Assembly (NCBI GenBank): GCA_947466965.1
Contig: CANIFU010000011.1
Location: 1 to 56,086, forward strand
Reading direction: 5' to 3'
DNA: 56,086 bases
Source of the DNA: Bacteroidota bacterium
GTDB lineage: Bacteria > Bacteroidota > Bacteroidia > 2-12-FULL-35-15
Shown: positions 8,451 to 14,245 of the stretch, piece after piece
Layout: each line of letters begins with the position of its first letter
How positions within the stretch are numbered: the first letter of the stretch is position 1
Notes under the pieces: model-generated
What the model saw: only the letters and a program-made list of their open reading frames with translations
What the model was told of the DNA's origin: nothing
Database searches by the model: none
Program-made: the position numbers and the translations under genes

Positions 8451-8585
8451 GGAACGCAGATCTGTTAAGATTTTTATGATTGAAAATGATAAAATATTTA
8501 ATGCGTTAAGAAAATCATAAGTTATCATAAACCAACACAGAGAAAATCATATTTTAACATAACAATCATAAAAAATCCGCGTTCC
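8451..8585. mobile_element. Gene-less inverted-repeat element (MITE-like) between hemCD and hemB
   Basis: The left end GGAACGCAGAT, then ATTTTTATGATTG, faces a right end whose complement reads GGAACGCGGAT, then TTTTTATGATTG. The 135-base interior is AT-rich with several ATCATAA words and no gene. AATA flanks both sides (8447-8450 and 8586-8589), a possible target duplication. The ends match those of the GxxExxY unit at 13702-14226, so this looks like a deletion derivative or MITE of that family. It fills nearly the whole hemCD-hemB gap, ending 15 bases before the hemB start, so it may contribute to hemB expression. Confidence 0.65.
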
Positions 8586-13685: not shown

Positions 13686-13701
13686 GGTGCTTTGTTTGAT
13701 A

Positions 13702-13733
13702 GTAACGTCAGATCTTTTAAGATTTTTTTGGAT
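13702..13733 (+). repeat. Left end repeat of the GxxExxY unit
   Basis: GTAACGTCAGATC followed by TTTTAAGATTTTTTTGGAT. It shares CAGATC, TTAAGATTTTT and the AACG start with the left end at 8451-8482 and is degraded at its outermost bases. The last codons of the pseudogene (FYPKKS and stop) are encoded within or next to it. Confidence 0.65.
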
Positions 13734-14174
13734 AAAAAAGAAGCTGTGTGTCGTATGATATTTTTATGTTTTCTAGGGTTATGTTTCTTTTAAAATCGTT
13801 ATATAATACTTTTCTTTTGTATTCTATTTCCTTTCCAAAGTTTAATAACAATAAAACTTCTATTTCTGTTGCTTTTAAATAATTGACTATTTGAATTTCG
13901 TGTTCTTCAATTAAATATTCACATGCTTTTAACTCAATGATAACTTTGTTTTTTAAAATGATGTCAGCAAAATAACTTCCAATACATATTTTATCATAAA
14001 ACACATCAATTGGTTTTTGTGTTTCACATTCTAGTCCTTGTTTCTTCAAGTCAATAATCATAGCTTTTCATAAACCTTCTCTAAAAAAACAAGCCCTAGA
14101 TTATTGTAAACATTATAATAAGCTTTTATTATTTTCTTAGTTAAGTCCTAATGCTTAAAATTATCTCCAATCAT
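13717..14174 (-). pseudogene. GxxExxY protein (PD-(D/E)XK-like nuclease), decayed
   Basis: Read on the minus strand from the ATG at 14174, the frame gives MIGDNFKH, a TAG stop (14148-14150), then DLTKKIIKAYYNVYNNLG and LVFLEKVYEK. At about 14061-14066 the frame shifts by one base into the segment that starts MIIDLKKQGLECETQKPIDV. That part keeps the family core: IGSYFADIIL, KVIIELKA, HEIQIVNYLKAT and LLLLNFG. The name-giving GxxExxY motif reads VFLEKVY, its Gly changed to Val. So there are three lesions: a stop, a frameshift and a motif change. The remaining 114-codon frame alone is unlikely to be functional. Intact relatives are about 125-130 residues. Confidence 0.8.
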
Positions 14175-14189
14175 AAATATTATTTTATC

Positions 14190-14226
14190 TTAAAAAATCA
14201 TAACCATCATAAAAAATCTGCGTTCC
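14190..14226 (-). repeat. Right end repeat of the GxxExxY unit
   Basis: On the minus strand it begins GGAACGCAGATTTTTTATGA and continues TGGTTATGATTTTTTAAG. It matches the right end of the hemCD-hemB element (GGAACGCGGATTTTTTATGA, then TTGTTATG) almost base for base, which is the strongest evidence that the two elements are related. Confidence 0.75.
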
Positions 14227-14245
14227 TATTATTCGTTAGTTGGAA

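Follow-up and report, generated by a model that had tools for sequence, protein, structure and literature searches.

The window analysed here, the whole stretch of 56,086 nucleotides from a Bacteroidota bacterium, contains at 13,699-14,230 a decayed unit of about 0.5 kb in which a pseudogene of the GxxExxY family lies between inverted ends, as found by reading both strands (Table 1). A sequence-only reading of the same DNA had reported a nuclease remnant boxed by terminal inverted repeats at 13,702-14,226, which is right to within a few bases, and had set it between two amidohydrolase genes; both neighbours do encode amidohydrolase-family proteins. It overlooked a second pair of ends of the same type, located between the hemD-like and hemB genes of the window.

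Table 1. Coordinates of the repeat-bounded units and neighbouring genes in the window
Feature	Coordinates	Strand	Remarks
GxxExxY-less 135-bp unit	8451..8585	.	between hemD-like and hemB genes; both ends of window type
Amidohydrolase-family protein, 428 aa	12399..13685	-	flanking gene (context)
3'-side unit end (relative to the gene)	13699..13745	-	ATAGTAACGTCAGATCTTTTAAGATTTTTTTGGAT on the + strand, a decayed ATAGGAACGCAGATCTTTTAAGAT; local score 62-70 against intact orthologous ends
GxxExxY open-frame remnant, C-terminal three quarters	13717..14061	-	profile matches TIGR04256, PF13366
N-terminal part of the GxxExxY gene, broken	14062..14174	-	TAG codon and one-base frameshift
5'-side unit end (relative to the gene)	14182..14230	-	AATAGGAACGCAGATTTTTTATGATGGTTATGATTTTTTAAGATAAAA; iterated (N)GAT units every ~10 nt
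Two-domain amidohydrolase-family protein, 1038 aa	14246..17362	-	flanking gene (context)

The open-frame remnant matched TIGR04256 with 84.3 bits (cut-off 35), the match beginning at profile position 30, and PF13366 with 88 bits (cut-off 22), which bears out the earlier assignment of the sole inner gene to a PD-(D/E)XK-like GxxExxY remnant; its intact orthologue L065 scored 141 bits in a profile search for the family. The N-terminal region is interrupted by a TAG at 14,148-14,150 and by the frameshift, and gave a weak profile match at 14,007-14,147 with three stops inside. The GxxExxY motif itself, in which the orthologues show no or almost no variation at G, E and Y, is not in open frame in the window copy. 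The Asp, Glu-x-Lys and Gln-x3-Tyr positions persist in the remnant; the conserved Gly of VGLLLNF and the original stop do not. The reading frame does end in the left repeat, as had been noted, although this stop is not the ancestral one: the orthologues stop about 40 nt earlier, and the frame runs on into the repeat because the original stop was lost by decay. Relative to the closest orthologue the remnant has a dN of 0.047 and a dS of 0.034 (dN/dS about 1.4), as expected for a gene released from selection. With a nonsense codon, a frameshift, a lost stop and mutated ends, the window copy has lost its function.

When the two window ends were aligned in inverted order they scored 27, as against a mean of 15.1 (s.d. 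2.4) for dinucleotide shuffles, only 2 of 2000 of which reached that value; the match is weak because both ends are decaying. Each end scored 62-78 against the corresponding end of the intact orthologues (shuffle maximum 31). The two are versions of one terminal sequence, as the sequence-only reading held. Chance similarity in AT-rich intergenic DNA might be suspected from the modest end-to-end match of the window taken alone; in the face of the orthologues, 200 other loci and the controls given below it is scarcely credible, and was rejected as the origin of the ends. A recent insertion at 13.7-14.2 kb was likewise rejected, since the unit is orthologous in sister species, where it occupies the same slot. 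The copy in the window is old, has been inherited vertically and is dying.

The gap between the two amidohydrolase genes is occupied by a GxxExxY unit in about 18 of 30 loci of the same genus, and at the remaining loci the gap is short, or contains a solo end or what is left of the gene together with the right end. Since slots are shared, and patchily filled, across the genomes of the genus, the units are old residents that have often been lost. Intact copies in the same slot have evolved under purifying selection, with a dN/dS of 0.04-0.11 over a raw synonymous divergence of 0.36-0.68. The 50-nt ends differ by 0.02-0.16 in the closer pairs, in which synonymous sites differ by 0.36-0.53; one more diverged pair of left ends (L079/L080) was disregarded, having been placed in the wrong register by the pattern used to locate them. 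As the ends diverge less than synonymous sites, they are conserved or homogenised. Within one genus, the same slot may carry differing end types, each with the matching protein type (L067, L068, L205 and L208 versus L064-L066), and two slots of one genome tend toward one end type, as if units had been replaced or copied between slots.

The hemD-hemB gap has a comparable history. In G000, G025, G003, G010 and G015 it contains the 135-bp pair or something close to it. G028 and G008 have a complete GxxExxY unit in this gap, and in G001 too a GxxExxY match adjoins hemB, but the contig starts there. In other genomes this gap measures only 14-21 bp. Because the same slot holds a complete unit in other species, the gene-less pair of the window may be an in-place deletion derivative. 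Three other species have ends without a gene in the hemD-hemB slot that are of another type, ACGAATT (L193, L201, L203), and the same type flanks a frameshifted GxxExxY gene in G000 (contig 10:5732-6072, L097).

To see how general this arrangement is, GxxExxY genes were collected from related genomes, and were found in 109 of 148, with up to 20 profile matches per genome. The flanks of 126 loci (300 nt on either side, aligned in inverted order, threshold score at least 32) contained inverted repeats in 78 cases (62%), compared with 2 of 48 control genes (4.2%) and 2.8% of mismatched pairs, in which the two flanks came from different loci. A second, independent collection, sharing a few loci with the first (L068/L220, L067/L221 and L154/L229), gave inverted repeats at 37 of 75 loci (49%) versus 2 of 176 control ORFs (1.1%), and the score distributions differ with p of about 4e-22. 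At the threshold used, 38-51% of the GxxExxY loci have no inverted repeat. The proposed tie between this family and a repeat-bounded unit is thereby upheld far above the controls, and intact genes elsewhere do possess such ends.

The ends consist of three to four iterated units, one every 9-11 nt, such as CACAGAT, CACAGAG, CGCAGAG, CGCAAAG, CACTAAG, CACAAAA, ACGAATT and others. The GGAACGCAGAT type predicted from the window alone does recur; it is only one of many, and what is general is an iterated 9-11-nt unit common to both ends, which varies between elements and agrees between the two ends of one element. Record titles place the sampled members of the window subfamily in Bacteroidota, Ignavibacteriota and nine other phyla; their ends have the consensus AATRGAACRC(A/G/T)GAT and then ACxGATT-like units, with GAT recurring every 9-10 nt. 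The motif G[AT]AC[AG]C[AGT]GAT was present on both sides of 37 of 80 loci of this subfamily and in 3 of 2062 control window pairs. Tandem amplification of the right end was seen in L090, L079, L073 and L078; L090 has about five copies, each some 100 bp long. Each copy has a recurring ATAATACCAAGTA-like motif 5-10 nt or so outside the end.

Ends and protein change together. Protein identity correlates with end similarity (Mantel rho 0.27, reached in none of 500 permutations), and among pairs with unrelated outer flanks the end type is common to 77% of those at least 70% identical in protein, 30% at 60-70% and 5% at 50-60%. The flank filter for these figures starts 330 nt from the gene, and part of the pairs counted as unrelated are orthologous after all, because at least some of them share near flanks within that distance (L170/L173, judged by eye, and the group L015/L029/L128). 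Clear cases at unrelated loci are L182 and L113, which are 93% identical and both lie in genome G042, and L008 compared with L015, L027 and L029. By sequence comparison, gene and ends form one unit of about 0.5 kb, and the end type follows the protein, including at unrelated loci. The simplest reading of this co-variation is that GxxExxY itself moves the unit.

Another enzyme might move the unit instead, with GxxExxY as cargo that profits from the ends, for example a nuclease protecting the unit or the host. Other species of the genus do have RAYT/REP units in these intergenic slots, and gene-less units are common in G035 and G010, and the loci read in these two genomes include no GxxExxY gene with matching ends. 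The latter fact counts against a self-moving GxxExxY unit, unless the gene was lost or was missed in incomplete assemblies. We nevertheless regard a separate mobility enzyme as unlikely, given that, even at unrelated loci, the end type changes with the GxxExxY protein, that units of about 0.5 kb have no room for a second gene of normal size, and that the RAYT-associated palindromes differ in sequence from the ends of GxxExxY units. The RAYT-like genes in question lie in the deoC-aldehyde dehydrogenase slot of G015 (L307), G002 (L313) and G032 (L318); L307 and L318 match NF047646 with E of about 1e-16, below its curated cut-off, and L307 is flanked by CCCTGTCAGGGTTTCAAACCCTGACAGGGG palindromes. 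In L074 a palindrome of this type occurs alone, beside one GGAACGCGGAT end.

Copies that have both ends and no gene were studied for a single class of ends, AGCCGCAGATTCGCAGATT with TTTGGCAGATTC as its inner block, which comprises 14 units of 100-170 bp in G035, G010, G003, G016, G000 and G032; these represent fewer than 14 distinct sites, the G000 contig 2 pair and one unit on G035 contig 15 being orthologous. The units consist of nested inverted blocks, of which the inner one matches the start region of the gene: G000 (contig 23) has a unit of this class that includes the gene, and there the inner block coincides with the gene start (ATGGCAGATTTT). The ends-only units fold into long hairpins (z -4.2 to -8.7), which is to be expected of any inverted pair, and similarity searches in G035 and G009 put the number of ends-only copies at about ten per genome. 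On this evidence from sequence, gene-deleted units that keep both ends exist and are dispersed. Solo ends, GGAACGCGGATGACACTGATAAAACGGATTT and GGAACGCAGATTATCATGATCTTCATGATT, also occur in intergenic DNA with neither gene nor partner end, at 42329-42480 of contig 4 and at 3495 of contig 124 of G000 (L034, L041).

One ends-only unit, on contig 1 of G035, lies at a site where the neighbouring genes almost abut in six relatives, and is most simply explained as a gain; it is flanked by 14 and 28 further unexplained bases. The deoC-aldehyde dehydrogenase site is empty in the sister genome G025, which looks like a later loss, because G028 and G009 hold a unit there. Loss or gain can thus be seen, whereas a clean junction between empty and filled states was found neither at this site nor at two ends-only sites. 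No direct repeat shared by the two flanks was apparent by eye in 49 units. The examination of flanks proposed in the sequence-only reading showed neither a target duplication nor a clean empty site.

That no target duplication was seen, that the units lie between genes and leave these undisrupted, and that the same slots are filled in many species would all suit a homing-type gene, whose nuclease would cut unoccupied alleles so that host recombination copies the unit in, the ends being by-products or a protection of the occupied site. Against homing of this kind stand ends that are more conserved than synonymous sites, that follow the protein rather than the slot, and that occur as ends-only copies at unrelated loci, and we judge it quite improbable.

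The units are intergenic. Of 67 left ends, 33 lie 2-11 nt past the first nucleotide of a co-directional gene's stop codon, and for 9 of these 33 that stop is the TAG of AATAGAAC itself. Such positions could be explained by short gaps between genes and selection against disruption. By simple ORF calls, GxxExxY points the same way as both of its neighbours in 124 of 166 cases and against both in 5, which suggests expression by read-through. Such a co-directional operon setting, the orthologous slots, and the low dN/dS at fixed positions in the genome would also be expected of a settled host nuclease acting in repair or stress, with ends that serve as autoregulatory binding sites or transcription signals and with mobility confined to the past; the strong purifying selection and long retention fit a host function equally well. 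Yet presence is patchy, with frequent loss and decay, several divergent copies occur per genome, an ends-only unit was apparently gained in G035, and the same type is found at unrelated loci in different families, so that a purely domestic role appears as improbable as homing.

The protein has the residues of a putative RecB/Cas4-like PD-(D/E)XK nuclease. In the 126 GxxExxY proteins Asp and Lys are invariant and Glu is conserved in 98%, and the positions that are invariant or nearly so are GxxExxY, D, ExK, QxxxY and NF. An AlphaFold model (pLDDT 95.7) has as its best match among solved structures the Cas4 protein SSO0001 (Foldseek E 3e-4; Z 10.2 over 96 residues, 3.2 A), which predicts a Cas4-like fold; both the Asp...Glu-x-Lys signature and the predicted core fold would place the family in the PD-(D/E)XK superfamily. 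No iron-sulphur cysteines were found among the invariant or nearly invariant columns (alignments A1 and A3), PADLOC defence profiles gave no match save a marginal one to Cas4b (E 0.005), and a search of solved structures by sequence found no significant relative.

Taken together, these data make it probable that the unit is a minimal repeat-bounded element whose single gene encodes a Cas4/RecB-like PD-(D/E)XK nuclease, an arrangement resembling RAYT/REPIN with an unrelated enzyme. The nuclease would bind the iterated units of its own ends and cut or nick there, and low-rate copying or movement of the unit and its ends-only derivatives would follow, probably with the help of host repair, leaving no visible target duplication. 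Many copies would have settled into vertical inheritance, like RAYTs, and be expressed with the host operon. That GxxExxY is the sole mobility enzyme of widespread minimal elements, reading their iterated ends and spreading the unit and ends-only copies with no DDE enzyme, HUH enzyme or recombinase, is proposed tentatively, the chances being close to even.

Other genomes suggest that such units make up a widespread family of bacterial DNA, little described so far, that is or once was mobile. Phage records contained no match to the GxxExxY protein, and plasmid records contained 8 distant matches. Relatives were seen on three viral-contig loci from IMG/VR (L217-L219) and on the Fusobacteria plasmid H1 (CP102406.1); viral contigs and plasmids are possible vehicles of GxxExxY between phyla. 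A literature search, with subscription papers and preprints outside its range, found no paper describing GxxExxY repeat-bounded units, passing mentions only of GxxExxY, nothing on PDDEXK_3 or TIGR04256, and nothing relevant for typical end sequences. The family is annotated only by its motif, and defined, element-specific ends give it a testable biology. If GxxExxY moves its own DNA, PD-(D/E)XK enzymes join the proteins that confer mobility single-handedly, and there is a cause for a class of short repeats, so far unexplained, that occurs in Bacteroidota and other phyla; if it moves nothing, a nuclease and repeats conserved together at fixed loci constitute an unknown host system.

Among known PD-(D/E)XK proteins, TnsA of Tn7 and Rpn are tied to transposition or recombination, and TnsA requires the DDE partner TnsB. 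GxxExxY would resemble both in linking this fold to DNA mobility, and differs from TnsA in that its units contain no partner gene; for Rpn proteins, we know of no defined ends. With Cas4/RecB-like nucleases (SSO0001, PDB 4ic1) it has in common the signature Asp, Glu-x-Lys, Gln-x3-Tyr and, by prediction, the core fold, whereas Cas4 has four cysteines binding an iron-sulphur cluster and GxxExxY, at about 120 aa, has no conserved cysteines. Like classical IS elements and MITEs, the units have terminal inverted repeats, one gene and internally deleted derivatives, and the short dispersed copies with both ends and no GxxExxY gene (the 14 units of one class and the 135-bp unit of the window) are MITE-like. 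Unlike classical IS elements, they have no DDE transposase and no target duplication was found, they measure about 0.5 kb in all, and they lie mostly co-directionally behind stop codons. The closest parallel is the RAYT/REPIN system (PMC3116915, PMC8049555), which likewise combines one gene with inverted short repeats in intergenic DNA, has gene-less paired-end derivatives that fold as hairpins, persists vertically with loss, and shares intergenic slots with the GxxExxY units in the genus of the window. The two differ in that the only gene of the GxxExxY unit encodes a PD-(D/E)XK protein in place of an HUH/Y1 transposase, that each of its ends repeats a unit in direct orientation where REP sequences are single palindromes, and that its gene-less copies appear to be few, about ten per genome by similarity search in G035 and G009, where REP copies number hundreds.
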